A DNA stretch of 64,000 bases. Source: Aristaeella lactis. GTDB taxonomy: Bacteria > Bacillota > Clostridia > Christensenellales > Aristaeellaceae. The notes beneath the pieces were generated by a model. The model worked only from the letters and a program-made list of their open reading frames with translations. It was not told where the DNA came from and ran no database searches. Below are positions 14,900 to 33,850 of this stretch, piece by piece (the first letter of the stretch is position 1; each line of letters opens with the position of its first letter). The translations under genes and the position numbers were made by a program. Where the stretch lies: positions 1,178,001-1,242,000 of the forward strand of contig NZ_CP069421.1 in NCBI RefSeq assembly GCF_018118585.1. Reading direction: 5' to 3'.

Positions 14900-14951
14900 C
14901 CAGGCTCACCTCCCGCCCAGAGGAACAACAGCCTTCGGTTGTTGTTCCTTC

Positions 14952-15062
14952 AATGCAGAATTCAGAATTCAGAATTCAGAATTATATAGTGTTTTCTTTC
15001 CTGTTAAGCATTCTTACATGCTGTCATTCCGAACGGAACGCAGTGAAGTCGAGGAATCCCTT
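14952..15062. repeat. CAGAATT microsatellite plus dispersed element
   Basis: Four CAGAATT-type units (14952-14984), then a variant dispersed element (15023-15062, GTCATTCCGAACGGAACG...GAGGAATCCC). This is the spacer between two minus-strand genes. Confidence 0.75.
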
Positions 15063-16404: not shown

Positions 16405-16452
16405 ACATAACAATATTACCACTTCTCCGGCAGGAAATCAAATGACGTGCTG

Positions 16453-16457
16453 ATCTG
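16453..16457. repeat. Target-site duplication, left copy (ATCTG)
   Basis: ATCTG directly before the TGT of the left end. The same 5 bp follow the right end at 30848. The next base is T on both sides, so the repeat can be read as ATCTGT and the exact cut is ambiguous by 1 bp. Confidence 0.75.
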
Positions 16458-16639
16458 TGTCGGATTGTAATTATCTCGTTAATATTGCAATTATCCCGTT
16501 AATATGTTGCATGTTCATTGTAATTATCCTGTTAACAAGGACTGTTTTTCCAATTTCCATTGTAATTATCCTGTTAACAAGATAATTTCCATTGTAATTA
16601 TCCCGTTAACAGATTTTTCCATTGTAATTATTCTGTTAA
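16458..16639. repeat. Transposon left end with six TnsB-type sites
   Basis: Direct copies of TTGTAATTATCYYGTTAA begin at 16465, 16485, 16518, 16560, 16592 and 16622. Sites 1 and 2 are 20 bp apart and the others 30-42 bp. Variation is confined mainly to positions 4 and 11-13. The terminus is TGTCGGATTG. These are the expected binding sites of the TnsB-like transposase. Confidence 0.88.
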
Positions 16640-16644
16640 TAAGT

Positions 16645-16833
16645 TTATTTATCTTTTTCGCCTGCGTACACTCTCTCAAGAAAATATACTCTGGATATTT
16701 TCCCGGCTATAGTAATGAAACCTTTCTCTTTCAACTCCTTGTTAAGAGTTTGTATGATTTTATATGCTTTTGATTCTGACACACCCAAGTATTCGGCAAC
16801 GTCTGTTGCATTCAGGAATCTTTTATTATCCAT
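16645..16833 (-). CDS. Small HTH protein, Xis-like
   Basis: A 62-residue winged-helix DNA-binding protein (FLNATDVAEYLGVSESKAYK, then a basic wing ending in SRVYFLERVY). This type is common in integrative elements of Firmicutes as an excisionase or regulator. AGGAG precedes the ATG. It is the gene closest to the left end and its stop is 5 bp from the innermost TnsB-type site. No tyrosine recombinase or relaxase is present here, so it may be a relic of another element or a regulator. Confidence 0.75.
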   Translation of the reverse strand: MDNKRFLNATDVAEYLGVSESKAYKIIQTLNKELKEKGFITIAGKISRVYFLERVYAGEKDK

Positions 16834-16846
16834 ACTGCTTCTCCTC

Positions 16847-17101
16847 TCAGCCCTCTGCCTTTGCGGTCATAGCCTGGTACATTTTCATCAGTTCCGCAAC
16901 GCACTCGGATTCAGAATTCAGTTTGCCCCAGAATCCATAGGCTTCCATAACAGCACGGTCGTTCTTCTGGTGGGCGGTACGCAGTTCTGGTGGCATGGTC
17001 AATTCATCGTACAGATCCGCGAGGCTGCTGTTCGGATATTTGGAACGAGCGTCCAGAATCATCTGGGCAGTTTCTTCAATCTTTTGCCGCTGGCCATTCA
17101 T
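16847..17101 (-). pseudogene. C-terminal fragment of a class I DNA methyltransferase
   Basis: An 84-residue frame containing ILDARSKYPNSSLADLYDEL followed by TMPPELRTAHQKNDRAVMEAYGF. This matches the extreme C-terminus of large MmeI/YeeA-type DNA methyltransferases, in which this segment follows the target-recognition region. All catalytic motifs are missing. The frame begins exactly where the DUF4314 gene begins on the other strand (17099-17103), which looks like a recombination junction. It may be translated but cannot methylate DNA. Confidence 0.65.
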
Positions 17102-17102
17102 G

Positions 17103-17327
17103 ATGCAGATCAGGCCGGAGATGCTGAAAAAGCTCCGGGAGGATTACCCGACCGGATGCCGCGTGGAGCTTATTCAGATGTTTGAGGAACCGCGCAAGGA
17201 CATGGTTCCCGGACTGACCGGAGAGGTCATGTTCGTGGATGACGCGGGCGGCATTCATGTCGCCTGGTCAAACGGCTCAACCCTTGCTGCGATCCACGGC
17301 ATCGACGTCATCCGCAGAATCGACTGA
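17103..17327 (+). CDS. DUF4314 family protein
   Basis: A 74-residue protein with RPEMLKKLREDYPTGCRVEL, a VPGLTGEVMFVDDAGGIHVAW core and a GSTLAAIHGIDVIRRID end. It matches the small DUF4314 family of Firmicute prophages and integrative elements. The function is unknown; the fold is probably a small beta barrel. No good ribosome-binding site is visible and the start overlaps the oppositely oriented methyltransferase fragment, so its expression signals may have been lost. ATG at 17100 is an alternative start. Confidence 0.7.
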   Translation: MQIRPEMLKKLREDYPTGCRVELIQMFEEPRKDMVPGLTGEVMFVDDAGGIHVAWSNGSTLAAIHGIDVIRRID

Positions 17328-17346
17328 TCACAATCAACCGCCAAAG

Positions 17347-17372
17347 GGCCACCCGTCAAAAGGTGGCCTTTT
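17347..17372 (+). terminator. Terminator after the DUF4314 gene
   Basis: GGCCACC, an 8-nt loop, GGTGGCC, then TTTT, 20 bp after the stop and just before the tail gene. Confidence 0.65.
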
Positions 17373-17392
17373 GACGTATTTGGAGGAATACC

Positions 17393-18091
17393 ATGCAGGA
17401 CTTTTTTCTCTGGAACGGGGTGGACTGCCGCATCTACGGCATCCACGTGACGGAGCAGCCTCCCATCACCATACCGCTTGAGCGAAGCACCCAGACCAAT
17501 GTGCCCGGCAGGCCGGGAAGCCTGACACAGCTGGAAGGCGAAGACGTCTACGACGATATGATCCTCACCGCTACCTGTTTTATCTCTGATCCGGCGCAGA
17601 TCCCGGCCATCGCCGCATGGCTGAAGGGAGCAGGAACAGTCACCTTTGCCAACCGGACAGGCGGCTACTACAAAGCACGGATCGCTAACCAGATCCCTTT
17701 TGAAAAGGTGCTCCGGGGCAATCCGCACTGTACCTTTGCAGTCAACTTCCGCTGCTATCCGTTTTTCTATGCCGATGCCGCCGCTGACATCACCGTTACC
17801 ACATCCGGGACGATCATCACGAATCCGGGAAGCGTGTACTCCGAGCCGATCCTCACGGTGTATGGTTCCGGGGACATTACGCTCATGGTGGGTACAACCA
17901 TTGTGGAACTGGAGGATATTTCCGGGAGCATCATTCTCGACTGCGCTCTGAAGGAAGCCTACCTGGGCAGCACCCTGATGAACGACCATATGACCGGAGA
18001 GTTCCCGGTACTCAAGCCGGGGATGAATCCCATTAGTTGGACTGGAGCGGTGACGAAGGTGGTCATAAAGCCGAATTGGCGATATCTATAA
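17393..18091 (+). CDS. Phage distal tail protein (Dit family)
   Basis: A 232-residue siphophage distal tail protein, which forms the hub at the tail tip that links the tube to the tail-associated lysin. It starts FFLWNGVDCRIYGIHVTEQPP and has the N-terminal beta domain typical of the family, then a galectin-like C-terminal half. It appears full length. GGAGG precedes the ATG. In phages the tail endopeptidase gene follows at once; here a minus-strand cassette of about 2.2 kb lies in between. No other structural phage genes are near, so it is a relic. Confidence 0.85.
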   Translation: MQDFFLWNGVDCRIYGIHVTEQPPITIPLERSTQTNVPGRPGSLTQLEGEDVYDDMILTATCFISDPAQIPAIAAWLKGAGTVTFANRTGGYYKARIANQIPFEKVLRGNPHCTFAVNFRCYPFFYADAAADITVTTSGTIITNPGSVYSEPILTVYGSGDITLMVGTTIVELEDISGSIILDCALKEAYLGSTLMNDHMTGEFPVLKPGMNPISWTGAVTKVVIKPNWRYL

Positions 18092-18093
18092 TG

Positions 18094-18690
18094 TCACTTA
18101 CCAAGCAGATATGATAAAATGACGAATGCCAACAACGACGCTACGCCTCCGCCAACAATCTGCATTATAGTGTGTCTGTTCGTTTTTAAACTTGCAATGG
18201 CAACAAGCACTAAAATGATGCAACCGATGGGAAATGCTGGCCATAAACCATTTTGAATCAATAATAGCATAGGCCCGACTACGCCGCATATATGTCCGCT
18301 GATTTTCAGTTGAAAAGCTTTGTTGAACAGGATGATTATGATTCCACTCAACAGGTATTCAAGGCAGAAAAACCAGATTGAACGTGAAGCATTGCTTAGT
18401 ACGCACACAAGAATGGAAAGAATATAGCCTCCAACCGCAAATATCATGGCGAGATATCTTTGCCCAATACGACCTTGATCTTTAAAATGCGGTATGAACC
18501 TTTGAAGCGGGTATGCCATTAGCGGCAAGAGACCAAGACAAGCAATCAAAGCCCACAACTGCAGCACGTTTGAAAAAACATTCCTCCTGTGTATCCAAAG
18601 CAACGCGAGAGAAGCCATTGCCAGAATGGGTGCAGCCGTCATAATTCGGATGGCTTTCCAAATATCGTTTTTTTGTTCAGCAGATCTCAT
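18094..18690 (-). CDS. Polytopic membrane protein, PAP2-like
   Basis: A 198-residue protein with about six membrane segments. KISGHICG resembles the SGH motif of PAP2 phosphatases, and NRHTIMQ lies where the catalytic His motif would be, but the Arg/His/Asp set is incomplete, so activity is doubtful. It overlaps degV by 4 nt and is co-transcribed with it under the divergent TetR regulator. Its stop lies 2 bp from the stop of the convergent tail gene. Confidence 0.65.
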   Translation of the reverse strand: MRSAEQKNDIWKAIRIMTAAPILAMASLALLWIHRRNVFSNVLQLWALIACLGLLPLMAYPLQRFIPHFKDQGRIGQRYLAMIFAVGGYILSILVCVLSNASRSIWFFCLEYLLSGIIIILFNKAFQLKISGHICGVVGPMLLLIQNGLWPAFPIGCIILVLVAIASLKTNRHTIMQIVGGGVASLLAFVILSYLLGK

Positions 18691-19604
18691 TCATGTTCAC
18701 CTTCGTTCTTTGATGAATCGTTCATTTGGGGACGTTCATCTCCATAGAAGAATATCGCTACAGTTCCCGGCCCGCAGTGCGAAGCAATAATCGTGCCTAT
18801 ATCACAAATGCGGATATCCCCGTGGATTTTGGGGAAACGTTCCTGGAGGACGGCTTTCATTTGTTCTGCTACAGAAAGACAGTTTGAATGGCATATCCAG
18901 CATTTCCCGCTGTACTCTTTCCCTCTGTCAGCATGCTGTTCCATTTCATCCGCTGTGCGCAGAATCGCGTTTTTCTTTGTTCGGACTTTATTGTAAGCAA
19001 CAATTTTACCATCATAGTCCAGCCGCATGATCGGACAAATACTAAGCAATGTGCCAATGGCAGCAGCAGGGCCGGAAAGTCTTCCACTGCGGCGATAATA
19101 ACTGAGCGTGGTTGAGAAAAACTGATGATGCAGTCTTCGGCTATGACATTTGATCCATTCGACAATTTCGTCCAGGTCTTTCCCTGCGTCACGCAGATCC
19201 GCAACGTCATCCACCAGCATACCATAACCGGAAGAGGAACAGGTTGTATCAATGACAATAATCCGACGATCCGGATACTTCGCCTGCAGTTTTTCTCCCG
19301 CTGCAATTCCATTCAGAATGGATGGCGTCATCCCTGTCCCGAATCCAAGGTGAAGCACATCACCCTTCTGAAGGAGTCCTTCGAGATATGCCTCATACGC
19401 CATCTCTGTAATCTGAGATGTTTTCGGGATCACGCCATCTTCCAGAAAGCGATAAAATTGAGGCATACTGTCTGGATTTCTTCCCATATCATCAGGATAC
19501 TCCTGATCGTTTACCAGATAGGAGTACTCGATCACAGAGATCTTTCGGGACTGTATGTAAGACCAGGGTAAATCTACCGTGGATTCACAGGAAAGAGTGA
19601 ACAT
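18687..19604 (-). CDS. DegV family fatty-acid-binding protein
   Basis: A 305-residue DegV protein. In this family a bound fatty acid is held between two domains, and some members (FakB) present it to the kinase FakA. Seen here are the N-terminal STVDLPWSYI, the PKTSQITEMAYEAY loop whose Thr/Ser contact the carboxylate, LHLGFGTGMTPS, and YYRRSGRLSG. It is divergent from a TetR gene with a strong palindromic operator between them, and coupled to a PAP2-like membrane gene. The set probably forms a lipid-related cassette carried by the transposon. Confidence 0.88.
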   Translation of the reverse strand: MFTLSCESTVDLPWSYIQSRKISVIEYSYLVNDQEYPDDMGRNPDSMPQFYRFLEDGVIPKTSQITEMAYEAYLEGLLQKGDVLHLGFGTGMTPSILNGIAAGEKLQAKYPDRRIIVIDTTCSSSGYGMLVDDVADLRDAGKDLDEIVEWIKCHSRRLHHQFFSTTLSYYRRSGRLSGPAAAIGTLLSICPIMRLDYDGKIVAYNKVRTKKNAILRTADEMEQHADRGKEYSGKCWICHSNCLSVAEQMKAVLQERFPKIHGDIRICDIGTIIASHCGPGTVAIFFYGDERPQMNDSSKNEGEHE

Positions 19605-19655
19605 TGCAAAGCCTCCCTTCGCGCTTCAACAAAGGGATTGTATCATTCAATACTT

Positions 19656-19711
19656 TGCGCTACAATAGTAGCGCAGGCATCTGCTACAGTCATAACAAAA
19701 TTGTAGCGCAT
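19656..19711 (+). promoter_or_regulatory. TetR operator between degV and tetR
   Basis: A perfect palindrome TGCGCTAC-AATA-GTAGCGCA (19656-19675) and a further half-site TTGTAGCGCA (19701-19710), placed between the divergent genes. It is the likely binding site of the regulator at 19725. Confidence 0.8.
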
Positions 19712-19724
19712 CAGGAGGAATAGC

Positions 19725-20288
19725 ATGTACCATATTCGGGAAGACAAACGATCAGCACAATCGGCGGAACTCATATATCAGTGTATTCTGAAATTGATGG
19801 ATCAAAAATCCTATGACCTGATTTCGGTGACTGATATACAGCGTAAATCAGGAATTGCGCGAACTACTTTTTATCGCTGCTTTGACAACATATCTGATGT
19901 GTTTCTCTGGAAATGCGATGAAGCATTTCATACTGCTTTCAGCACATACCATCCGCCAGCCTTTCGTGGCGAATTCGATCTGGCTCGGCATTTTGTCAAT
20001 TACTGGATACAGAATTACAAAATCCTCGAAATACTCATGAGGATCAATCGTCTGGACATCATTTTTACCTGCCACATGAAAAATGCTTATATTCTGGAAG
20101 AAAAATACGGCGTTCTTCCTAATTTGCCTCGGGCACATACGGAATACTATGTGTCTGTCAGAACAGGATTCACAATCAGCATCCTGCTTGCCTGGCTGAA
20201 AGGCGGCAGAAAGGAAAACGCGGATGAGATTATTGAAATTATCAGAGAACAGTTTGCGGTACTAAAAAACGATATGGACATTCTTTAG
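19725..20288 (+). CDS. TetR/AcrR-family regulator
   Basis: A 187-residue repressor. The N-terminal HTH (about 10-60) includes ISVTDIQRKSGIARTTFYRC. The helical C-terminal domain carries FTISILLAWLKGGRKENADEI, as in the DhaS-like TetR group with DUF-type C-termini. GGAGG precedes the ATG. It is divergent from degV, with a strong operator in between, so it probably represses both itself and the degV/membrane pair. A terminator follows 28 bp after its stop. Confidence 0.88.
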   Translation: MYHIREDKRSAQSAELIYQCILKLMDQKSYDLISVTDIQRKSGIARTTFYRCFDNISDVFLWKCDEAFHTAFSTYHPPAFRGEFDLARHFVNYWIQNYKILEILMRINRLDIIFTCHMKNAYILEEKYGVLPNLPRAHTEYYVSVRTGFTISILLAWLKGGRKENADEIIEIIREQFAVLKNDMDIL

Positions 20289-20316
20289 TGCATGCTCACA
20301 CCTAAGATAATCGATC

Positions 20317-20340
20317 AGTGTCCGAAGAGGACACTTTTTT
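20317..20340 (+). terminator. Terminator of the tetR gene
   Basis: AGTGTCC, a short loop, GGACACT, then TTTTT. Confidence 0.85.
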
Positions 20341-20368
20341 AAATTCTTCAGGATTGGAGATGATTCCC

Positions 20369-20989
20369 ATGATCTGTGTCTATCCCGCCGACTGCACCGA
20401 CTTTTCCACCAACGGAAACGGCACCCTGTCTCCGCTGTCCGCGAACGTGACGGAAACCCTGAACGGCGAATATGAACTGCAACTGGTGCATCCCATCGAT
20501 GAAGCCGGAAAATGGCAGCGGCTGGTAGAGGGCTGCATCCTCCGCGCTCCAGTTCCAGCCGCAATGACGCCACGCGTGAACTTCTCCGCGCCGGGCGACG
20601 ACAGCGGAACGGAAATCTGGCGGGTGAACACTGATTTCTCCGGTGCGGAAACCCGGAAAGGCACGCTCCGGCTCCGTTCCGGGCCGGGCACGAAATACAA
20701 AATCCTGGCCAGCTATAAGCACGGTTCCATGGTGCAGGTCGTGGCCAAAACAAACGGCAGCTGGTACGAGGTAACCGCGCCAGATGGAAAACACGGATAC
20801 ATGTCCACCACCTATCTGGTGTTTGATCACAGGGAAGGCTCCGCTTCGCAGGCGGTTTCTTCTACGGTAGAGGAACGCCAGCTGCGGGATCAGCCCTTCC
20901 GCATTTACCGGGTGGTACCGGAACTGGACAAGATCACGGTATATGCCCGGCATATCTTCTATGACCTTCTCGACAATATGATTCATTGA
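20369..20989 (+). pseudogene. Truncated phage tail endopeptidase (Tal N-terminal region) with SH3
   Basis: A 206-residue frame. The N-terminal MICVYPADCTDFSTNGNGTL and LNGEYELQLVHPIDEAGKW match the start of siphophage tail-associated endopeptidases. A bacterial SH3-like domain (about 95-150, GTLRLRSGPGTKYKILASY) is inserted. The tail protein then resumes (FRIYRVVPELDKITVYARHI) and stops at NMIH, whereas family members usually continue for several hundred residues. It therefore lacks the catalytic part. GGAG precedes ATG 20369. It would follow the distal tail gene directly if the degV cassette were removed. Confidence 0.75.
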
Positions 20990-21110
20990 AAATTTGTCCT
21001 TAAAAAAGGATCCCACTAATTATATTACATATTTTTTTAATTTTTTCAGCAACCCGAAGAAAATATTTTTTTTGAACCTAATTAATATAATATCTTTTAG
21101 AGGTGAGTTT

Positions 21111-21305
21111 ATGAAAAGGAATCCCGAAATTTGTCCTTACTGCTGTCATGTGATTCTTGACGACGATCAGGAATACTGTGACTACTGCGGTATGGATATA
21201 GAAGAAGAAGTCCCGGGCGAAAAGGCTTCTGGATCCTGCTTCGGAAGCATCGGGACATTCATACTTGTAATTCTTCTGTTTATTTACCTTGTTGCGAAAA
21301 AGTGA
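21111..21305 (+). CDS. Zinc-ribbon, single-TM small protein
   Basis: A 64-residue protein. Two CxxC pairs (CPYCCH and CDYCG) form a zinc ribbon, followed by an acidic linker and one C-terminal membrane segment (FGSIGTFILVILLFIYLV). AGAGGTGAG precedes the ATG. The 120 bp upstream are very AT-rich, and the gene begins the AT-rich part of the transposon. The function is unknown. Confidence 0.7.
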   Translation: MKRNPEICPYCCHVILDDDQEYCDYCGMDIEEEVPGEKASGSCFGSIGTFILVILLFIYLVAKK

Positions 21306-21343
21306 TATTAACTAAATTGTATTGAGTAATACGATAAGAGTGT

Positions 21344-22543
21344 TTATTCTGGGAGTAAGCCGTTAAGTGCCTTTTCTGTTATCTCAAACCCTCTGATATC
21401 CATATCCTCCCGTATAGCAAAGTCTTTTTCTTTTTCATACAGATCAATCGGCCCAACCACGTTATGGATTACAAATCCGGTTCTTTTCCCTGCGTATTTT
21501 ACTTTTTGTCTCCACATGTCGTTATCATACATAACATGCAGCATTATCGATTCGAATGATGCCTTTTTCCCAACCCATTTGTCTATAACACTTCGAATTG
21601 TATCGACAACTGCTTTCTCGACTGCGAAATGCCGTGAATTGCAAATATCGCCCTTGATTTCCATTATTATTTTCTTTACTTGTTTCTTCCCTGATTCCGA
21701 GTCTGGAATTCCATTTGCCCAGCGTAGGAGCGGTAAAATAAACTTTTCGTCGGTTATGTCTTTATCCGGCTGTAATAGTGTTGATAATTCTGACACTCCA
21801 TCGTATTCAGGTAATAATCTTTCAAATTCGTGTCGTAACTCACGTCGGTTCACAGCTAATTCCGCTTCAGGAAACGCATCGTGTAATGCTTTGTTTATAC
21901 CTGGAACATAATCGTATCGTATTTTTCGCACTTTTTCCCGGTTTTCAAACCGTTTGCATTCGTCGATAAAACCCTTCTCTGAATAATCCTTAACAAAACC
22001 AACCAGGCCGCCGTTTCCATTACTTGTTTCTGCTACAACGCAATGCTTTGTTTCATCATGGACGCAGGAAAATGAACCAAAGTATAATTGTTCATATCCG
22101 TCAATATGTTGAATATCATAAAATGTTTCTGCAAGATCAGTTTCCCATTGTTCGAGGTTTGAGTCGTCTATGCCAAAATTGGCTGAACAGCTTCTTATTG
22201 ATCTATAGTTTCCGCTCATCCATGCATTTATAACCAGATTGCGATATTCCGGGCTGATACCGTTTTTCCATTCGGATGTTTCTTCATAGTCTGCCCCAAA
22301 TGTTGCTCCGCAGCCCTTACAACGCCAGCGTTTTCGAAACACTTGCAAAACTGTTGGCTGCTTGTCAAGCACCGCAAATACTTTGTGAGGAGTCAAGTCC
22401 GGGTTCCATATCGCAAAATACGGACTATCACAGTTTTTTTCCTTGCAGCGAGTTGGCTCCGCGATATATTCCGCCTTCGTATAAACAACGTTCTCTTTCT
22501 GGACTCTCTCCAAAACTTTGTAGCGGTTCAGATGAATGCTCAT
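21344..22543 (-). CDS. ISL3-transposase-like protein without the catalytic triad
   Basis: A 399-residue protein with the plan of ISL3-family transposases. An N-terminal zinc ribbon (CKEKNCDS and RWRCKGCGATFG) is followed by a helical HTH-like region and a core with YDYVPGINKALHDAFPEAEL, which matches the ISL3 segment before the second Asp. The catalytic positions differ: LYFGSF stands where IDEF is expected, VNRREL where VxDRFH is expected, and no TNG..EG.N segment exists near the C-terminus. The likely state is a DNA-binding protein that no longer cuts. ATG 22543 is preferred (GGAG upstream); ATG 22558 is possible. It is divergent from the LexA-like gene. Confidence 0.7.
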   Translation of the reverse strand: MSIHLNRYKVLERVQKENVVYTKAEYIAEPTRCKEKNCDSPYFAIWNPDLTPHKVFAVLDKQPTVLQVFRKRWRCKGCGATFGADYEETSEWKNGISPEYRNLVINAWMSGNYRSIRSCSANFGIDDSNLEQWETDLAETFYDIQHIDGYEQLYFGSFSCVHDETKHCVVAETSNGNGGLVGFVKDYSEKGFIDECKRFENREKVRKIRYDYVPGINKALHDAFPEAELAVNRRELRHEFERLLPEYDGVSELSTLLQPDKDITDEKFILPLLRWANGIPDSESGKKQVKKIIMEIKGDICNSRHFAVEKAVVDTIRSVIDKWVGKKASFESIMLHVMYDNDMWRQKVKYAGKRTGFVIHNVVGPIDLYEKEKDFAIREDMDIRGFEITEKALNGLLPE

Positions 22544-22632
22544 AGGCCATCGCTCCAATCAAGACATCTATCACTGACAAGTATATCCATATTTGTATGT
22601 GTATACAAGCTTTAATACTTCACTTCAATACA

Positions 22633-22712
22633 TTTCCCGCATGGTCAACAACTTTCCCGCATGATCAACATCAATCCAGCATAAACAATATGAATCCCGC
22701 ATGAAAAAACGC
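22633..22712. repeat. Four 20-bp iterons between the ISL3-like and lexA-like genes
   Basis: Exactly 20-bp periodic units start at 22633, 22653, 22673 and 22693. Units 1 and 2 read TTTCCCGCATGRTCAACA; units 3 and 4 are diverged but keep ATCCMGCAT. The spacing puts all sites on one face of the helix. They lie in the 307-bp divergent promoter region and differ from the transposon-end sites. Confidence 0.8.
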
Positions 22713-22778
22713 GTAATGGCTATATTCACATAGCGAGAATATAATAAAAGCGCAGTAATAAAGTAATCAGTTACCCAC

Positions 22779-22807
22779 TTGCTGCAGCTCCATAATTTGG
22801 ATATAAT
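22779..22807 (+). promoter_or_regulatory. Promoter of the lexA-like gene
   Basis: TTGCTG (22779-22784), a 17-bp spacer, TATAAT (22802-22807), followed by AAGGAG before the ATG at 22851. Confidence 0.8.
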
Positions 22808-22850
22808 ATAAACGAACATTTGCACCATTAATCAAGAAAGGAGTCTGAAA

Positions 22851-23444
22851 ATGCGGAAAATCAACCATGAACGCAGGGTAAAGCTTTACACATTCATGCG
22901 TTCATACTTTGAAGAATACGGTCGCCTTCCGACGTATAGAAGGATTCTTCGAGAGCCTCTTGGTTATTCGTCTATGGCAACGATCACCGCTGACATCAAC
23001 CGTCTCAAAGAAGAAGGACGGCTATGCGAAGATGACGAAAAGAGAACTGCCATTGTTGGAATGAAGCCATTTTCTCCGTCTGTCGTTGGTTCCGTTTCTT
23101 GTGGATACCCGGCGGAAGCGGTCGAGGAAAGAGGAGCAGATCTGATTTCTTCTCTTTTTGAAGGCATGTGCCACAACTTGGTCGTTATTATCGCATCTGG
23201 CAACAGCATGACCGGGCGCGGAATCTACAATGGCGATAAACTGATTGTAAAGAGACAGCCAAACGCCGAACCGGGAGATGTTGTAATTGCCATGATTGAT
23301 GGAGAAACCACATGTAAGACCCTGGCAAAGGACGATAAAGGACAGTATTTGAAAGCGGAAAACCCGGCTTATCCGGACATCAGACCCAATTATGAATGGT
23401 CACTTTACGGTGTAGTCAAGTATGTAATCCATCGGATAGATTAA
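22851..23444 (+). CDS. LexA-like S24 self-cleaving repressor
   Basis: A 197-residue LexA-type protein. The winged-helix domain is at about 1-65. The presumed self-cleavage site is Cys84-Gly85 (SVSCGYPAEA) in place of the usual Ala-Gly. The catalytic dyad is Ser119 (SGNSMT) and Lys156 (TTCKTLAK), the same positions as in E. coli LexA. A Cys-Gly site is known from UmuD. Located at the head of the transposition genes with its own promoter, it probably represses the element and could release it on DNA damage. It is not the host LexA by context. Confidence 0.85.
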   Translation: MRKINHERRVKLYTFMRSYFEEYGRLPTYRRILREPLGYSSMATITADINRLKEEGRLCEDDEKRTAIVGMKPFSPSVVGSVSCGYPAEAVEERGADLISSLFEGMCHNLVVIIASGNSMTGRGIYNGDKLIVKRQPNAEPGDVVIAMIDGETTCKTLAKDDKGQYLKAENPAYPDIRPNYEWSLYGVVKYVIHRID

Positions 23445-23445
23445 A

Positions 23446-23505
23446 GCCCAGAGCTGTTTGCGGCAACTCTGGGCAGCCCCGGTACAGTTTGCGGCTGATT
23501 CCGGG
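23446..23505 (+). other. Twin stem-loops with a shared loop motif
   Basis: Hairpin 1 (23446-23474) pairs GCCCAGAG with CTCTGGGC. Hairpin 2 (23478-23505) pairs CCCGG with CCGGG. Both loops contain GTTTGCGGC. No T tract follows directly. They begin 1 bp after the lexA-like stop and may be a weak terminator, an RNA structure or a protein site. Confidence 0.5.
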
Positions 23506-23628
23506 AAAAGATACTCCCCTCGTTACAGGAAGCGATCTATATGTATTATACACGATTTGAAATAAAAATCGATGGTTTTACAAAAAATCGCTTCTATTTG
23601 GATTATTTTCAAAAAGGAAGTGGTTTTT

Positions 23629-25218
23629 TTGTTGAATGTTCCGCCTCTTAACCCTGGCATGATGCTTGTATCATGGTTGGATCTGTTCGCCAAAGTTAAT
23701 TGTTATGACTCCTTTTTAAGCTTTCGTAAAGAATATCTCACGAGGAACGGCCTGGTGAATAGAAAAATATCGTTAGCGAGAACTGCCTTGTTTCCAACCT
23801 TGTATGGTCGGGACGCTGCTATTGATTACGCTCTCGACATGTTGTGTTCTGAACAGTCTGACATGAATATACGACGGATAATATATGGCAACACTCTTTT
23901 TCCTGCATTCACAGCCTTTTACAGCAAACCGCAACAAGCACAATTTAAAGCAATTACTGATTTCGACTTGCCAATAGATAGAGACACTATAACCGAAGAA
24001 TACAATCAATTCTGCCATTTCCAAGGAATTGACAACATTCTATGCACAAAATGTGATTTCATAAACAGAATCAAATCACAGAATGGGTCTGAACTTCGTT
24101 ACTGTCCTCATTGTATGAATGATGATATCAACGCATTTGGCGCTCCTGTTGCTCATTTGTTTCATAACTTCCCATATGTGTACATCTGCCCTATTCACAA
24201 CGAAGAACTTGTTGTTTTTCCTGACGGAATTACGGAACAGGGAAATGATTATCGTGTTGCAAATCCCCATATTCCGCCCGAAAACCTTCAATATGCATCT
24301 TTTGTCTACGACCTTATTAAATATGTTCAAGAAGAAAACCGCCCTATTGATCTTACATCATTTACATACTCTGTTTATCAAATGCAGAAAGCTCTCCGCG
24401 TATCGTCATGGCGCATACTATGTTCAATAATACACGAAGGCTACATTGATAGCGATTTTTTGGGCCTTGAAGTACGCAGGTATCCAAGCGGCATTACTTA
24501 CAATTACTATGAAGATGAAACATTAAATTACTTTCTCTATGAACCAGAGAACATGATTTGTGTCCTTCTCTATCTCGTCGGGTCTTTTGATAAGTTCATT
24601 CCTTTTCTTGAGGACAGAAACTATGAACCGCCAAAGTCCTTTATTGACGACTATCACCAGAGGAACGACTCTAATTACTGCATCAAAACACTTAATAAAA
24701 TGACTACCGATGAACTTCGTAATGTGATAGAAGAAAAGACAAACGGGAACTGTTACTTGTCACACATCGATCAGGGGAAATGCTTTGTTCGATATAACGA
24801 ATTGCCACCCTGTAAACAGTTTAAGAAATATATGTTAGACAAGAACAGCCATCGAATTCTTACGCTCAACTATGAGGAAGTCGTAAATGACTTATCTCAA
24901 AACAAGATATATATGTTCTTGCCAGTCAAATCAGAAGATATAAAGTATTGCCCTCCGATTAAAAAGAACGATCAAGCCGCTCTCTTCAGCGGCTACTGTG
25001 AATCGGTGCTTCGAGAAATCAAGTCGAAGAAAGTGACTGAAATTGATCTCAGAAGGTTGCTTCCTATGTTACCTCGTAATTCGTTTGGCCTTTTAAACCA
25101 AGCAGATTGCCATCGCATTCTGATGGAAGTCATTGAGAAACATCATGAACTGGAATGTACTACAGGGAAATATCCATTTCTAAGAATCAATTATAACGAG
25201 GAGGTAGTTGGCGCATGA
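23629..25218 (+). CDS. TniQ/TnsD-type target-selection protein
   Basis: About 529 residues. The N-terminal PPLNPGMMLVSWLDLFAKVN matches the TniQ start. A zinc-binding set follows: Cys139 and Cys142 (CTKC), Cys159 and Cys162 (CPHC), then CPIH at 187-190. The long C-terminal half resembles TnsD, not the short CRISPR-associated TniQ. In Tn7, TnsD binds a chromosomal site and recruits TnsC. No ATG fits. A TTG at 23629 (or 23632) has GGAAG 8 nt upstream and is preferred over the upstream ATG at 23572. Its stop overlaps tnsA by 4 nt. Having tniQ first is unlike Tn7, where tnsD follows tnsC. Confidence 0.85.
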   Translation: MLNVPPLNPGMMLVSWLDLFAKVNCYDSFLSFRKEYLTRNGLVNRKISLARTALFPTLYGRDAAIDYALDMLCSEQSDMNIRRIIYGNTLFPAFTAFYSKPQQAQFKAITDFDLPIDRDTITEEYNQFCHFQGIDNILCTKCDFINRIKSQNGSELRYCPHCMNDDINAFGAPVAHLFHNFPYVYICPIHNEELVVFPDGITEQGNDYRVANPHIPPENLQYASFVYDLIKYVQEENRPIDLTSFTYSVYQMQKALRVSSWRILCSIIHEGYIDSDFLGLEVRRYPSGITYNYYEDETLNYFLYEPENMICVLLYLVGSFDKFIPFLEDRNYEPPKSFIDDYHQRNDSNYCIKTLNKMTTDELRNVIEEKTNGNCYLSHIDQGKCFVRYNELPPCKQFKKYMLDKNSHRILTLNYEEVVNDLSQNKIYMFLPVKSEDIKYCPPIKKNDQAALFSGYCESVLREIKSKKVTEIDLRRLLPMLPRNSFGLLNQADCHRILMEVIEKHHELECTTGKYPFLRINYNEEVVGA

Positions 25219-25904
25219 GTAAATACCATATTAGCGATGAAACAAAATTCAAAGAAGGCCGTTGTTCTAAACTCGGAAAAGACTGGATACCTTGGATTAA
25301 AGCTTTTGAATTCTCTTCCCTTGGCACCAGAAGTATATTGATTGATTGGAAGACCGGAAGGCAGGTACACTGTCTCTCTATGGGAGAGAGAGCATGGTAT
25401 CTTATTCATCGTTGGGACGATAGTATTCTTGATATCAATGAGCAGGTTGTCCTGTATAAAGACAGCAGCAAAGAAGTCATGGGAACTACTGAAATAGCAA
25501 ACAAACTTGGAGTAAGAGCGATTTGCAATGGACAGAAATGCACAACATCTGATTTTCGTGTTTTTCATTCTGATGGTTCCGTTGAAGTTGTGTGTTTCAA
25601 AGCGTCAGAGGAAGCTGTATTTGCTCCAAAGAAAGAACGTTTGCGCCAGCGGCTTTCCATTGAACAGGCATACTGGGAATGGCAAGAAAGACCCGTGTCG
25701 TGGTCTCTTGATTATTACACAAAACAGAATTTTATTCTTGCCGACAATATTGATATGGTCACAAGATTTTTTGACAAAAGCAAAGTATTTGATGATGTAA
25801 GCTACCTCAAGCATTTGATCGCAACGAAGCAAATTGTTGTCGATATGGAGTCTGAGATACTCTGCTGTGGGGAGATGGTTAAAAATGGGATCTATAATAA
25901 ATAA
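25215..25904 (+). CDS. tnsA: TnsA-type endonuclease
   Basis: A 229-residue protein related to TnsA, the restriction-like nuclease that cuts the 5' ends of the transposon while TnsB cuts the 3' ends. The PD-(D/E)XK-type residues are Glu58 (MGERAW), Asp113 (TTSDF) and Lys129 (VVCFKAS), close to Glu63, Asp114 and Lys132 of Tn7 TnsA. The C-terminal half (about 140-229) would be the TnsC-contacting winged-helix region. With TnsA present, movement should be cut-and-paste. The gene overlaps tniQ by 4 nt and tnsB by 20 nt. Confidence 0.82.
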   Translation: MSKYHISDETKFKEGRCSKLGKDWIPWIKAFEFSSLGTRSILIDWKTGRQVHCLSMGERAWYLIHRWDDSILDINEQVVLYKDSSKEVMGTTEIANKLGVRAICNGQKCTTSDFRVFHSDGSVEVVCFKASEEAVFAPKKERLRQRLSIEQAYWEWQERPVSWSLDYYTKQNFILADNIDMVTRFFDKSKVFDDVSYLKHLIATKQIVVDMESEILCCGEMVKNGIYNK

Positions 25905-28083
25905 AGTTCAAAGCAAACTAAAACTGCAGGTTCATGTCGGGGATGTTGTTGCATATCTAAATAAAACATATTCTGTTGTTTTCGTTGATCATGCCAATGG
26001 TCAGGTTGTTCTTTTTGATAAATACAGCTCCGAACTTAGTTGCATTACTAAAAGCACCGAAAATCTTTTTGCAGAATACCTGATTGGAGCTGTATCTGTT
26101 ACCCCTGGCGATCATTATATTGTCATTCCGAACGACAACAATCCCATTTATCTTAAACGCCTCGCTGTTCTTAATGACATAATTGATGCTTATGGGCCAA
26201 CCTATCTTGATCTTGTTGGGAAAAACAGCAAGCCGGAGCTTAAAGATATAATTCATAAGCACAATATTTCAGGCGTTCTTGCTTGGAAAATCATTCATCT
26301 CTTTCTGAAAAATGGCTGCGATAGAACTGCATTGTATCCCAAAACAACAAAAGACCGAAATCTTGATCCAAACAAAACCTATGCCCGTAGAGGAGCAAAG
26401 GCAAAAGACGCAGACCTGCAATCTGAAGTTGTTGCGCAAAATAACCCTGAAATCCTTTCGATTTTTAATGAATACAAGGAGAAAATTCTTAGTAAACACT
26501 TTTTTGGGCCTACTGCTGCTTATGAAGATATGATGTGCAAGTATTTCTTGCAAACATTTTATAGCCGTGATGAAGCAGGTGTTTTGTATCTGGATGTAAA
26601 ACTGCTTCCGCCCGCCCTTATTCCAACTTTTTTTCAGTTTTATAGTTGGTATAAAAAAAACACAACATACAGAGAACGGGAAACCGCTAAAATTGGCGTT
26701 CTTGCATATAAAAACGAACGACGTCTGCAATATGGAGACACTTTCTCTTGCACTCATGGAGCCGGGCATTTTTTCGAAAGTGACCACTGGGAAGTCCCTG
26801 TTTATCTTATATCCCAGTTTTCAAATGACACGGTTTCAAAAGCGATTTTATCTGTAATGATCGATGTTTATACTGGGCATCCTGTTGCTATAAATCTTTC
26901 TTTTGATAACAACTCAAATAGAGCATTTACTTCAATGGTTCTATCTTTGGGGCGGTCTAAAATGGAATTGTGTAAAGAATATGGTGTACACCTTGAGAGT
27001 GAATCTGACTGGCCTTCACAATATTTGCCGAGAAGTATGCGTATTGATTCCGGCTCTGACTTTACTTCAATAAACACAGCTCGTTTTTGCAAAGAGAACG
27101 ACATAGTCCCTGTTCCTGTAACTCCTGGATGTGGCTCGTACAAGCCCAATGTTGAACGATTTTTTGGGGCTCTTAATACTTATCTCGCCAGTCTTCTGGA
27201 AGATGATGGATATATAACAGGAATGCCAAACTCTCACCCCGAAAAGAAGGCCCACTTAACAATAAAGCAACTTTTTAAAATCATTCTTGAATTCACTGTT
27301 GCTTACATAAAAACGCCACGCCTGAACTTCAAACGAACAGAGGACATGCGAAGGAAAAATATCGGTACTACTCCCCTCGATCTTTTTCAGTACAGCATTG
27401 AAAGGTATGGCGCTCCTACTCCAATTATCAACAAAAATCAATTTTTATGGTCTTTACTTATGGATGATGTTACATCAACAATCTCTTCTAATCATGCTTT
27501 GCATATTAAAGAATGGGATTTGGAATATGCAGACATAAAAAACAAGGAACTTTCTGACATGATGGAGGCAGCGGGTGAAAATGGAAAGCCGTTCCCCGTT
27601 CGATATGATCCTCGCAATATAGCAAACGTCTATTACTTGAAAGATGGAGTTCCTACACCAGTACATCTAAAACCTGCATACAGAAGTTATGCTGATACGA
27701 CTCTGTATGAATACTTGAAAAAACGGGAAAAAGAAAATACAAAAAAACGCCATGACCGGAGGAAGCGCTTGGAACAGAAAGTTGCTGCCAGATATCATGG
27801 AAAGCAAACTATTTCCTTGTCGCGTTCTGCCCATAAGTTTAAACCCGGCACAAAGTTCATGAGAAATAATACAATATTTGAAAAAGAAGCAACTGCAAAA
27901 ATCCATACTATTGCAGACGAGTTGGAAAATGAAAATACAACTACACTGTGCATTGAGGCACCTGCAAGTACAATTATTGCTGAAAGCAAGCCCTTGCCCA
28001 AAGTCGAAGCTTCACACACGCTTAACCAAAGTGCTTCTCAACGCATGATTGCATTAAGAAAGAACATGGATTCAGCAACATAA
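25885..28083 (+). CDS. tnsB: TnsB-type DDE transposase
   Basis: A 732-residue retroviral-integrase-type transposase. The catalytic residues are Asp300 (ESDHW), Asp388 (RIDSGSD) and Glu424 (PNVERFF), with 87 and 35 residues between them, close to Tn7 TnsB. An N-terminal DNA-binding part (about 1-270) should recognise the 18-bp end sites. A basic C-terminal region (YLKKREKENTKKRHDRRKRL) precedes a tail that could contact TnsC. ATG 25885 has GGGGAGATGG upstream and is preferred over an in-frame ATG at 25834. It overlaps tnsA by 20 nt and is followed by tnsC after 16 bp. Confidence 0.92.
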   Translation: MGSIINKVQSKLKLQVHVGDVVAYLNKTYSVVFVDHANGQVVLFDKYSSELSCITKSTENLFAEYLIGAVSVTPGDHYIVIPNDNNPIYLKRLAVLNDIIDAYGPTYLDLVGKNSKPELKDIIHKHNISGVLAWKIIHLFLKNGCDRTALYPKTTKDRNLDPNKTYARRGAKAKDADLQSEVVAQNNPEILSIFNEYKEKILSKHFFGPTAAYEDMMCKYFLQTFYSRDEAGVLYLDVKLLPPALIPTFFQFYSWYKKNTTYRERETAKIGVLAYKNERRLQYGDTFSCTHGAGHFFESDHWEVPVYLISQFSNDTVSKAILSVMIDVYTGHPVAINLSFDNNSNRAFTSMVLSLGRSKMELCKEYGVHLESESDWPSQYLPRSMRIDSGSDFTSINTARFCKENDIVPVPVTPGCGSYKPNVERFFGALNTYLASLLEDDGYITGMPNSHPEKKAHLTIKQLFKIILEFTVAYIKTPRLNFKRTEDMRRKNIGTTPLDLFQYSIERYGAPTPIINKNQFLWSLLMDDVTSTISSNHALHIKEWDLEYADIKNKELSDMMEAAGENGKPFPVRYDPRNIANVYYLKDGVPTPVHLKPAYRSYADTTLYEYLKKREKENTKKRHDRRKRLEQKVAARYHGKQTISLSRSAHKFKPGTKFMRNNTIFEKEATAKIHTIADELENENTTTLCIEAPASTIIAESKPLPKVEASHTLNQSASQRMIALRKNMDSAT

Positions 28084-28099
28084 AAGAGGAGATGATATT

Positions 28100-29767
28100 T
28101 TGTCAATTAATTTGCAAAGCTTTATAAAGCCTATTACCTATTCTGAGATTGGTCACAATGGTTACCAATATGATAAAAGGATATTCGAAAAAGGAGAAAT
28201 TGTTGAAGCAAGACATATTAAAATTCCATACATTCTTCCCAACCCTCTATATTCTTGCCTGCCTCCTGCTGCTACAGAAGAAGAGCTTGCAGAGGCCGCA
28301 ACAACGAGAATAGATTTCAACCATAACGAGATAATCAAATTGCCCGATGTCGTACAACATGAAATCATTGGACAAATAAAAGAAAACATAAATATATATC
28401 TTCCAATGTATTACGATTCGAGTATAAATGTCCGTGCTTGTCTGCAATCATCCTATTTAAGAAGAGGCTTCCCAAAGAACGATACAAACCTAAATGACAT
28501 TACAAATCCATTATATGTTTATCCGAGAACTGAAATACAGAAACATGGAACTGATGGCGGCTGCCAGATTATAGGCGGTAGTGGTTGTGGCAAATCAACA
28601 TCCCTTGATCCGATACTGTCTTTCTATCCTCAAGGAATACGACATCTCCTTACAAATGGCGGTGATTTTACACAAATTGTATATTTAAGAGTTGATTGTC
28701 CTGTAAATAATGTTTCGGAATTATATGGAAGAATAGGCATTCAAATCGATTACATCCTGCAACGTAGGCATTGCCATGAATTTGAAAACATGCTCAGAGG
28801 AAGCAATAGAACAACAAACTCGAATAGATCTACAACACTTACCAATTTGGTCAACGCATTTGGCATTGGGATCATTATTCTGGACGAAGCGCAAAATCTC
28901 AATCTTACCGACAAAGAAATCATTGAATTGGTGAATATCAGTAATACCACAGGAGTCAACTTTATATTTGTCAGCACAAAACCCCTGTTTCCTGAGTATA
29001 AAGTAAACGAAGACAACAGAAAAGTAATACGCCGCTTTGGAGTTGGAAATATAGCTGATCGTTATTGTCAAGATACTAATCTGTTTTATTCGATTATTTA
29101 TGAGTTGAGTAATTACCAGCTTTTCGAGCCAGAAATCCATATGGTTGATATGATTATCGACTCAAACAATATCCCCAGATTTGTAATCAACGAAAAATAT
29201 GCAGACGTACTGGATGAAATACATTACTTCTCTCAGGGCAGGATCGGTGCCATTTTATCACTTTGGATTGAAATGAATAATCTATATATTGAGGATGGAC
29301 GTAATGAAAACATTGATTTGAATTTTGTTCGTAAAGTCATTCATCTGAAATTGCACCAGCAGGGACTTATTTCGGAAAAGGAATCTCGGATAGCAAGAGA
29401 TGCCTTCCAGCACAAACTGCGTATCGCGCTATATGATAAAGACGATATCTCTCAGGATTATTACATCAACGATATTCCAAGCGACGCTGATCGCGATGTA
29501 GATATTTGCTGCGAATTGGCATGTAATGTGTTTAACAATTTGCATAGTCAGCTAAAGGATAATTATGACGACCAGGTTCTGCGTGATGCTGTATTCTCCG
29601 CATCTCTCAACCTTGCCAGCAAGAAAAAAACGATATCTGAAGACGCTTTGCGTCAAGAGACTATAACAATACTGACTGGTGCCAAAAGAAAGAAAGCCAA
29701 GAAACAAACCAACCCTGCAAGCAAAGATGAGTTTTTCGCCAGCAAGCTAAATAATTCATCTACATAA
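28100..29767 (+). CDS. tnsC: TnsC-type AAA+ ATPase
   Basis: A 555-residue regulator ATPase. Walker A is GGSGCGKST (Lys165) and Walker B is IIILDEAQNL (Asp262, Glu263), followed by sensor-like TGVNFIFVSTKP. In Tn7, TnsC polymerises on target DNA marked by TnsD and activates TnsAB. The length matches Tn7 TnsC and is longer than the minimal TniB/CAST type. The start is TTG at 28100 with AGAGGAG upstream. The C-terminus is Lys-rich (KRKKAKKQTNP). Confidence 0.9.
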   Translation: MSINLQSFIKPITYSEIGHNGYQYDKRIFEKGEIVEARHIKIPYILPNPLYSCLPPAATEEELAEAATTRIDFNHNEIIKLPDVVQHEIIGQIKENINIYLPMYYDSSINVRACLQSSYLRRGFPKNDTNLNDITNPLYVYPRTEIQKHGTDGGCQIIGGSGCGKSTSLDPILSFYPQGIRHLLTNGGDFTQIVYLRVDCPVNNVSELYGRIGIQIDYILQRRHCHEFENMLRGSNRTTNSNRSTTLTNLVNAFGIGIIILDEAQNLNLTDKEIIELVNISNTTGVNFIFVSTKPLFPEYKVNEDNRKVIRRFGVGNIADRYCQDTNLFYSIIYELSNYQLFEPEIHMVDMIIDSNNIPRFVINEKYADVLDEIHYFSQGRIGAILSLWIEMNNLYIEDGRNENIDLNFVRKVIHLKLHQQGLISEKESRIARDAFQHKLRIALYDKDDISQDYYINDIPSDADRDVDICCELACNVFNNLHSQLKDNYDDQVLRDAVFSASLNLASKKKTISEDALRQETITILTGAKRKKAKKQTNPASKDEFFASKLNNSST

Positions 29768-29781
29768 ATGGAGAAGCAATT

Positions 29782-30660
29782 ATGATAGTATCACGCGATG
29801 AAAAATGGAAAATAGGGCTTTCTCATCTTAATGAGTATTATGGATCACATGGACATTGCAATGTTCCGCACCGATATATCTCACCAGATGGTTATCATTT
29901 GGGTATATGGGTACAGAATCAGCGGACTGCTGTTAAGCGCGGCAAATTATCTCATGAAAAGATTGAACTGCTTTCCAAATTGCATTTTACATTTATCGTT
30001 AATGATTACAATTCAATGTGGTTGAATGGATACAATCATTTGCTCGATTATTACAATAACTGTGGGGATGCAAATGTTCCGCACCGATATATCTCACCAG
30101 ATGGTTATCATTTGGGTCAGTGGGTAAAGAATCAGCGAACTGCTATTAAGCGCGGTAAATTGTGCCGTGAAAGGTATGAACTACTTTCCAACTTGAATTT
30201 CAGATTTAACGTTAAAAATACAAATACAATGTGGTTGAACGGATATAATCATTTGATCGATTATTTCAATAATTGTGGGAATGTAAATGTTCCGCAATCT
30301 TATATTTCTCCTGATGGTTATCGTTTGGGTCAATGGGTGTTTCAACAGCGACAAGTTTTTAAGCGCAACCGTTTAGACCACGAAAGATATGAATTGCTTA
30401 AAAAGATCAAGTTTTCGTTTGATACAAATAGATCAAATCCCGAACCTGCATGGGAGAATGGCTATAATCACTTAATTGATTATTGTAGAATTCATAAATC
30501 TGTCAAAGTTCCGGCAAGATATATTTCTCCTGATGGGTTTAAATTGGGGTATTGGGTATTTTACAATCAAATCAACTATAAATTATTATCAATTACACAG
30601 ATTAAAAAACTTGAGGCAACTGGGTTTTTCCCTCTCTGGCATGAAACTCATACATGGTAA
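29782..30660 (+). CDS. Protein of four helicase-associated (HA) repeats
   Basis: A 292-residue protein built of four roughly 70-residue repeats, each with W-x-x-G-[FY]-x-H-L-x-[DE]-Y, a cysteine or histidine, NVPxxYISPDGYxLGxWV and a basic helix ending at ELL. This is the helicase-associated (HA, PF03457-type) module, a small helical DNA-binding domain usually found after helicases. No helicase is attached. It starts 14 bp after tnsC and ends 29 bp before the innermost right-end site, so it is the last gene of the transposition operon. It may be an accessory DNA-binding or target factor; this is inference. Repeats 1-3 are highly similar even in DNA. Confidence 0.82.
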   Translation: MIVSRDEKWKIGLSHLNEYYGSHGHCNVPHRYISPDGYHLGIWVQNQRTAVKRGKLSHEKIELLSKLHFTFIVNDYNSMWLNGYNHLLDYYNNCGDANVPHRYISPDGYHLGQWVKNQRTAIKRGKLCRERYELLSNLNFRFNVKNTNTMWLNGYNHLIDYFNNCGNVNVPQSYISPDGYRLGQWVFQQRQVFKRNRLDHERYELLKKIKFSFDTNRSNPEPAWENGYNHLIDYCRIHKSVKVPARYISPDGFKLGYWVFYNQINYKLLSITQIKKLEATGFFPLWHETHTW

Positions 30661-30688
30661 TAATTTTTTTTTATTTGCTATATCCTTG

Positions 30689-30847
30689 TTAACGCAATAA
30701 TTACAATGCGTTTTTTTGTTAACGGAATAATTACAATGAGGTTTTAGACATAAAAAACGCAACATATTAACGCGATATTTACAAGTAGCATACTCCAGAA
30801 ACGTTTATTTTCCGTCAATCTTGTTAACGAGATAATTCAAAACTCAC
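30689..30847. repeat. Transposon right end with four inverted TnsB-type sites
   Basis: TTAACGNNATAATTACAA-type sites begin at 30689, 30719, 30767 and 30824 (the last is TTAACGAGATAATTCAA). They are inverted relative to the left end. The end reads AACTCAC next to the duplicated ATCTG. The site number is unequal between ends (6 and 4), as in Tn7-like elements. Confidence 0.88.
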
Positions 30848-30852
30848 ATCTG
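30848..30852. repeat. Target-site duplication, right copy (ATCTG)
   Basis: Matches 16453-16457. It lies 30 bp from the stop codon of the hydrolase gene. Confidence 0.75.
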
Positions 30853-30882
30853 TTTTTCAGTTTTACTGCTGAAATGCTTATT

Positions 30883-32367: not shown

Positions 32368-32515
32368 GAGCGAATCTCTCTTTTCCATATATTTGGCATC
32401 CTGATTACTGATGCCGGGCAGCGAAATCCAAACATATGGTTATTGTATTTCGGCATAAGACAAAGGATTCCTGTTTGTCTGTAAAATATAATCCCCTGCG
32501 GCAATATGGATATCC

Positions 32516-32557
32516 TAAAGAAGCTGCCGGAGGCTATCTCCCTGGCAGCTTTCTTTT
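32516..32557 (-). terminator. Terminator after the gene at 32572
   Basis: On the minus strand, AAGCTGCC, a 15-nt loop, GGCAGCTT, then CTTTAGG. The other strand ends in TTTCTTTT, so it may work both ways. Confidence 0.65.
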
Positions 32558-32571
32558 ATTCCCATGACACT

Positions 32572-33132
32572 TCAGTTTTTCCGGACCGGTGTGTACCTGA
32601 TCTCATGTAATTTGTATTTGATGAACACATCAATCTTCATTGCATCGGTTTCCCAGCCATACATCGGGCCCGATCCGCTCATCATATTAACCAATTGAAG
32701 CATTCCTAATTCCTCAGGTATTTCAACCTTACCATATACTTTTTCCATTTGGAGCATGATCTCATTCACCAGATCCTCATCATCGAAGGCTGCTCCGAAC
32801 TGGATCAGCTGATTGTCATCAAACTCGAACACAACATTCAGGTTTTTGCCATGATAATCCCGTACCTCATGAAGATAAAGATCTGACACACTCGCCGTGG
32901 CGGTTTCACCGTTTTCCAGCTGAACCTCGATCCTGTCCGTGTCAAACGCGTACTTTTCAAACTGGTCTTCTCCAAACTTCGCATATACCTCATCCAGTGA
33001 CATGCCCAGTTCCAGCCCCGGATACAGATCCAGGATCGGATCCGTCGCCATTTCCACAGTGGTTTCCGCAAACACCGTCACAACAGTCATCATCAGGATC
33101 ACCATCAGGATACCTGCCAGGATCTTCTTCAT
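32572..33132 (-). CDS. Small secreted protein, unknown
   Basis: A 186-residue exported protein with a signal peptide at about 1-22 (TVFAETT). LGMSLDEVYAKFGED near residues 42-56 resembles the start of SmpA/BamE-like folds, in which a helix pair precedes a small beta sheet. No cysteine for lipidation is seen. It is followed by a terminator and preceded by a membrane/zinc-ribbon gene on the same strand 28 bp upstream, so the two are probably co-transcribed. The function is unknown. Confidence 0.65.
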   Translation of the reverse strand: MKKILAGILMVILMMTVVTVFAETTVEMATDPILDLYPGLELGMSLDEVYAKFGEDQFEKYAFDTDRIEVQLENGETATASVSDLYLHEVRDYHGKNLNVVFEFDDNQLIQFGAAFDDEDLVNEIMLQMEKVYGKVEIPEELGMLQLVNMMSGSGPMYGWETDAMKIDVFIKYKLHEIRYTPVRKN

Positions 33133-33160
33133 TTCGTTTCACCTTCCAACCGGTTCGTTC

Positions 33161-33802: not shown

Positions 33803-33850
33803 GAAAGAAAAACACCCGGAGGATCAGCGCGCTGCCTGTCCTTCCGGGCG
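33803..33850 (-). terminator. Terminator of the LacI gene
   Basis: On the minus strand, CCCGGA, a 22-nt loop, TCCGGG, then GTTTTTCTTT. It lies 40 bp after the LacI stop. The other 240 bp of this spacer show no gene. Confidence 0.6.

Follow-up and report, generated by a model that had tools for sequence, protein, structure and literature searches.

Tn7 of E. coli carries the genes tnsABCDE. Each of its ends holds several TnsB sites, and the termini are of the TGT...ACA type. Within the wider group, a separate DNA-binding protein beside TniQ is known from Tn6022, where TnsF, a tyrosine-recombinase relative without the catalytic site, is proposed to recruit TniQ (PMC10293859). Some CRISPR-associated transposons (CASTs) carry repressors of their own, namely an Xre repressor in I-F3 CASTs (PMC11406308) and the MerR-type CvkR in V-K CASTs (PMC9938897). 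Here we describe a 14.4-kb stretch (16458-30848) within a 64,000-nucleotide window of the Aristaeella lactis genome (contig NZ_CP069421.1; all positions are those of the window). This stretch is a genuine Tn7-like element. With a probability of about 0.88, we assign it to a deeply divergent lineage of Tn7-like transposons, and it would move by the mechanism proposed below.

The element shares homologues of TnsA, TnsB, TnsC and TniQ/TnsD with Tn7. Its TnsB is about 20% identical to that of Tn7. In contrast to Tn7, of which the R721 copy was compared, its tniQ lies before tnsA, and TnsE was not seen. It also differs from Tn7 in that its TniQ has no detectable TnsD domain and in that the gene at its right flank encodes an esterase and is not glmS. 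The presence of tnsA distinguishes it from elements of the Tn5053/Tn402 type (tniABQ), which have no tnsA. Three Tn7-like elements from the same host family (L079, L080 and L082) resemble it in having TnsABC and TniQ in one operon; however, their order is tnsABC-tniQ, and their TnsB proteins are 22, 19 and 17% identical to that of the element. As in CASTs with their own repressors, a repressor gene stands beside the transposition genes, but here it is of the LexA/UmuD type. No CRISPR array was seen among the repeat families listed (the best 20 of at least 60), and no cas gene was matched by the scanned proteins of the element, a scan that left out some small open reading frames. Compared with Tn6022 and its TnsF, the potential partners here are other protein types (HA, or helicase-associated, repeats and an apparently dead ISL3-like protein).

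Termini of TGT at 16458 and ACA at 30848 bound the element, and the repeated transposase sites within them, which are putative TnsB sites, are together with these termini of the Tn7-superfamily type. The original prediction had described six left and four right repeated sites at matching ends. These were found again as copies of a site of roughly 20 bp, with direct sites starting at 16465, 16485, 16518, 16560, 16592 and 16622 in the left end and inverted sites starting at 30687, 30717, 30765 and 30822 in the right end; an extra inverted match overlaps the left-end sites at 16572. All 11 sites score at least 17/20 against the consensus, while the next best score in the 64 kb is 15/20. Over the 391 bp of both ends, 11 matches of at least 14 were counted, whereas 500 first-order Markov sequences averaged 0.45 such matches and never exceeded 4, a comparison that is partly circular because the consensus was built from the sites themselves. 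The right end had been placed at 30847. It is corrected here to 30848 as the most likely position, because the outermost site then sits 7 bp inside the terminus on each side. With ends at 16458 and 30848 and a duplication of 4 or 5 bp, the element-free junction would be expected to read GCTGATCTGTTTTT. The G+C content of the element is 42% (39% in the part from 21.3 to 30.8 kb) versus 56% in the remaining window.

The core genes tniQ, tnsA, tnsB and tnsC lie on one strand and overlap or are tightly spaced, tniQ overlapping tnsA (Table 1). We place the start of tniQ at the TTG at 23632 and not at 23572; this is probably correct because a GGAAG lies upstream and the resulting N-terminus is TniQ-like. 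Residues 36-678 of TnsB align with Tn7 TnsB 7pik (phmmer, E 5e-10), and the ATPase core of TnsC (residues 148-294) with Tn7 TnsC (E 1e-9). TnsA matches the TnsA proteins of relatives with a best E of 2e-19; nine of these were aligned with it, at identities of 27-31%. For TniQ, the Pfam TniQ model gives an E of 2.8e-5 (25.2 bits, cut-off 27), and a structure model of moderate confidence (predicted local distance difference test, pLDDT, 60) has Tn7 TnsD 8glu as its best fold match (E 1.8e-3, probability 1.00). All four proteins thus match by homology, in agreement with the predicted placement in the Tn7 superfamily. Residues D317/D405/E441 of TnsB (earlier given as D300/D388/E424, as numbered from Met18) are invariant in 10 aligned TnsBs, the Walker residues K165 and D262-E263 of TnsC in 9 aligned TnsCs, and E58 and D113 of TnsA in 10 aligned TnsAs. 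The catalytic residues listed in the original prediction therefore stand, except for TnsA K129, which does not align. Its description of the element as complete-looking is narrowed here to the presence of the core genes and both ends.

To place the element, a TnsB tree of 108 rows (105 different) was built by a quick method and rooted on one TniA. The element splits from 106 others, Tn7 included, on an end branch of 4.89, and the tree program warns that the element TnsB and the outgroup are long branches that meet. In the host family, with the host included, TnsB was matched in 13 of 300 genomes at an E of 1e-3 and TnsC in 8 of 308 at 1e-6; a clearly closer TnsC was present only in genome G119 (30% identity, E 5e-28). 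Beyond the family, at an E of 1e-10 and again counting the host, 5 of 396 genomes sampled from the order and 11 of 398 from the phylum were matched, but none had a close TnsB (best identities 22-27%). Similarly, a single-protein scan of a genome contig collection gave no close relative, and there was no relative among the viral contigs scanned. An alignment scan of genome contigs kept 80 of 449 confirmed loci by means of QIDAT- and QF[RY]YW-type patterns; close kin could have been missed in it because the element TnsB itself has neither pattern. Judged from these sequence comparisons, the element is a deeply divergent lineage of Tn7-like transposons.

Gene order was compared across 100 related loci, 20 from whole genomes and 80 from contigs, which include some near-identical duplicates and several loci cut by contig ends. 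The gene tniQ follows tnsC in 86 of them, is not seen in 13 and stands solely in front in one (L081), so the tniQ-first order, which had been predicted to be unusual, is common to just 1 of the 100. L081, on contig G119:C63 of the same host family, is a decayed element. It begins with an N-terminal fragment of TniQ, which is followed by a stop and the zinc finger; the rear portion of TnsB comes directly behind, in a different frame, and TnsC is last. A deletion that starts in the TniQ zinc finger and reaches into tnsB has removed tnsA and the beginning of tnsB, and tniQ is frameshifted. In a TnsC tree that used 58 of 95 rows, L081 is the sister of the element with a Shimodaira-Hasegawa-like approximate likelihood ratio test (SH-aLRT) value of 99. 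Its TnsC is 28% identical to that of the element over the tree columns and 30% in the search, and both loci have the motif GxGSxKxNVExFF in TnsB. The order tniQ-tnsA-tnsB-tnsC probably characterizes a small lineage, in which it would be inherited, because L081 shares it and is the sister in TnsC; one decayed sister is thin evidence for this. The contig of L081 ends 0.5 kb before its tniQ, and no HA, LexA-like or ISL3-like gene was found on it.

Two further observations were made among the related loci. A second tniQ stands in front in 3 of the 86 loci with tniQ after tnsC (L096, L116 and L122), where tnsA is preceded by one tniQ and tnsC is followed by the other. Loci L086-L088 and L090, from the host family and order, form a clade of short tns operons with a TnsA of 115-146 residues and a TnsB of about 600.

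In the mechanism that we propose, TnsB would bind the sites of both ends (six left, four right) and join the 3' ends, while TnsA would cut the 5' strands, leading to cut-and-paste movement. TnsC, an AAA+ ATPase, would connect the transposase to TniQ, and TniQ would mark the target. Cut and paste, mobility and target are inferred here from Tn7. Going by position and domain type, expression is most likely under the control of the LexA-like repressor encoded before tniQ. If the element uses an accessory target factor that binds DNA, the HA-repeat protein encoded beside tnsC is the best candidate.

Table 1. Features of the element and its flanks (positions in the window).
Feature	Position	Strand	Details
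Left flank ATCTG	16453..16457	.	last four bases TCTG equal right flank
Left end	16458..16652	+	TGT terminus, six direct TnsB-type sites, one overlapping inverted match
Type IIG restriction-methyltransferase C-terminal fragment, 84 aa	16847..17101	-	PADLOC PDLC03598, E 1.6e-27, profile 833-910 of 912
Small phage-type protein	17040..17327	+	phrog_3782/2431
Phage distal tail protein (Dit)	17393..18091	+	phrog_33, E 5e-33
198-aa protein	18094..18690	-	without Pfam match
Cargo gene, presumably DegV-like	18687..19604	-	named from its sequence
TetR-type regulator	19725..20288	+	NCBIfam matches under cut-offs, best 2.4e-7
Phage tail protein fragment with SH3 domain	20318..20989	+	
ISL3-transposase-like protein	21344..22558	-	NCBIfam ISL3 E 8e-6, under cut-off
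20-bp-spaced repeats TCCCGCATGA	22635..22704	+	copies 22635, 22655, 22695; weaker 22675
LexA/UmuD-type S24 repressor	22851..23444	+	Ser119, Lys156, Cys84-Gly85
TniQ, 528 aa	23632..25218	+	start codon TTG at 23632; frame open from 23572
TnsA, 229 aa	25215..25904	+	C-terminal part shortened
TnsB, 732 aa	25885..28083	+	from Met18 of open frame 25834-28083
TnsC AAA+ ATPase, 555 aa	28100..29767	+	
Four-HA-repeat protein	29782..30660	+	Pfam HA, 4 stretches, E 8e-69
Right end	30687..30848	-	four inverted sites, ACA terminus
Right flank TCTG	30849..30852	.	

A number of results weigh against the reading of the element as a divergent Tn7-like transposon with this mechanism. AAA_22 in TnsC is the only core-protein domain above its Pfam cut-off, as TnsA (TnsA_C), TnsB and TniQ all fall below the curated cut-offs, and no fold match of TniQ reaches an E of 0.001. 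The placement of TnsB may be pushed outward by long-branch attraction. The C-terminal part of TnsA is shortened, and its K129 falls outside the catalytic-lysine column of the MAFFT alignment, in which E133 occupies that column; K129 is nevertheless likely to be the catalytic lysine, in a loop about four residues shorter. A flanking ATCTG had been predicted on both sides. TCTG is indeed common to them (16454-16457 and 30849-30852), but ATCTG requires the A that ends the element at 30848 to be assigned to element and flank alike. The flanks therefore match over 4 bp or represent a 5-bp duplication minus one A, not a clean 5-bp duplication; one lost A would account for the imperfection. No second copy was found in the genome, and there was no empty site among the six genus relatives compared, four of which hold other genes in a variable interval. 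The HA, LexA-like and ISL3-like genes are present as described in the original prediction, but no relative ties them to transposition: homologues were found at none of the 100 related loci, although the element is longer than many of these loci, and L081 shows no HA gene after its tnsC. Since they were not found in these relatives, the roles given to the three genes are inferred.

The possible partner genes were characterized further. The HA gene probably arrived with the element, because the genus is otherwise nearly without HA matches (1 of 44 other genomes, weak and partial). The LexA-like gene stands directly before tniQ on the same strand. Its product fits the LexA/UmuD S24 family by its dyad, which we take to be Ser119/Lys156, by a presumed cleavage site at Cys84-Gly85 and by a DNA-binding domain, which is weak (Pfam 0.028); the lexA model TIGR00498 gives 84 bits versus a cut-off of 111. 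SOS control through this protein is plausible. An operator was not found, the nearest GAAC-N4-GTTC-like site (22813) having three mismatches, as do very many sites across the window (counted without shuffles). The regions upstream of the LexA-like gene and tniQ share 13 matches of 18-mers versus 12-15 in 25 shuffles, none beyond chance. The TCCCGCATGA repeats sit between the divergent ISL3-like and LexA-like genes and form a possible operator array. When compared with three ISL3 transposases, the ISL3-like protein has lost the DDE residues (D to G, D to N, E to F) and kept the zinc-ribbon cysteines, and it appears to be catalytically dead. No similar protein was found in the other 119 of 120 family genomes searched or in phages; plasmids gave none at 1e-5 and merely weak ISL3 matches at a limit of 10 (best E 0.9).

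How these three genes relate to transposition can be explained in different ways. The chance that all three are plain cargo, with TniQ alone finding the target like TnsD, falls a little short of even. The lack of homologues at the related loci agrees with this, as do the occurrence of HA proteins on plasmids (391 of 72,556 records, those listed being mostly annotated as helicases or HA-domain proteins) and the presence of other cargo that is clearly scrap. That scrap lies toward the other end of the element, however, whereas the HA gene follows closely behind tnsC and the LexA-like gene directly precedes tniQ, and the only sister available for comparison is decayed and cut off just before its tniQ. 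It is rather unlikely, in our estimate, that the HA protein is a trans-acting target selector that binds DNA, recruits TniQ and replaces the usual DNA-binding C-terminal part of TniQ/TnsD. Its gene begins 15 bp past the tnsC stop on the same strand, and the Pfam TnsD domain (PF15978) was detected in 49 of 51 scanned TniQ proteins, that of the element being one of the two without it. In PMC11406308, the Figure 4 legend, which concerns TniQ domain organisations, includes HA, helicase-associated domain, among its abbreviations, and with TnsF (PMC10293859) there is already one case of a DNA-binding partner separate from TniQ. Yet the gene was found in none of the relatives compared, L081 included, no TniQ-HA fusion occurs among the 51 TniQs, and the structure model of the HA protein is unusable (pLDDT 42). 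Moreover, the divergence of TniQ may hide a TnsD domain, and its 528 residues exceed the 400 above which PMC10293859 takes the length of TniQ proteins in dual loci to suggest direct targeting. A broader version appears improbable, namely a new deep Tn7-like branch with a split target choice (TniQ without TnsD plus the HA or the dead ISL3-type protein) and a self-cleaving LexA-type repressor tying transposition to DNA damage. In the open-access text available, "Tn7-like" and "helicase associated domain" were not found together, although the hyphenated form is in PMC11406308, nor were Tn7, LexA-like and TnsC; LexA does co-occur with Tn7-like, TniQ and tnsABC, and ISL3 with Tn7-like and TniQ.

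Two other explanations concern the element as a whole. It could be an old insertion whose junctions have changed and that is now immobile or in decay, as the 4-bp match of the flanks next to TGT/ACA ends, the shortened TnsA, the phage fragments inside, the single copy and the broken sister L081 would suggest. The core frames, however, are open over their full length, TnsB and TnsC retain their catalytic residues and both ends are well preserved, and we consider this explanation unlikely. We find it highly improbable that the tniQ-first order is an accident of one genome, caused by rearrangement or assembly. Only one of 100 other loci shares the order, and it is degraded; but the host contig is 3.4 Mb long, tniQ overlaps tnsA, and L081 shares both the order and the TnsC clade. 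A divergent, Tn7-like transposon remains our preferred reading of the element.

The element is present as a single copy in its genome, between a GntR gene on the left and a tRNA-Thr gene on the right. Homology to genus relatives ends on the left at 16428-16446 in five of six and at 16334 in the sixth; in four of the six it picks up again near the tRNA-Thr gene, at about 35015-35022. The interval 16447-35018, from the GntR gene to the tRNA-Thr gene, is a variable spot across relatives, and in relatives L074-L077 it is occupied over about 2 to 6 kb by other genes, which these relatives partly share. The esterase gene, which lies 35 bp beyond the right end, was considered as an attachment gene and rejected; it is a poor conserved target because only 16 of the 45 genomes of the genus have a match, counting the host, and just one of the others aligns over nearly the full stretch. 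There was no evidence for a target logic via the left GntR gene. Further to the left, a sequence of about 45 bp (14944-14995) recurs at about 88-98% identity elsewhere in the host genome and genus, like a dispersed intergenic repeat. Inside the element, the cargo from 16847 to 20989 is mostly scrap (a methyltransferase fragment, the Dit gene and a tail fragment), with the presumed DegV-like gene and the TetR-type gene between.

CRISPR-guided transposons descend from Tn7-like elements, and TniQ serves as the adaptor for new targeting modules. Annotation-based surveys likely miss the present lineage, because its TnsA, TnsB and TniQ fall under the Pfam cut-offs. Separate DNA-binding partners, if true, would test how new target selectors get recruited.

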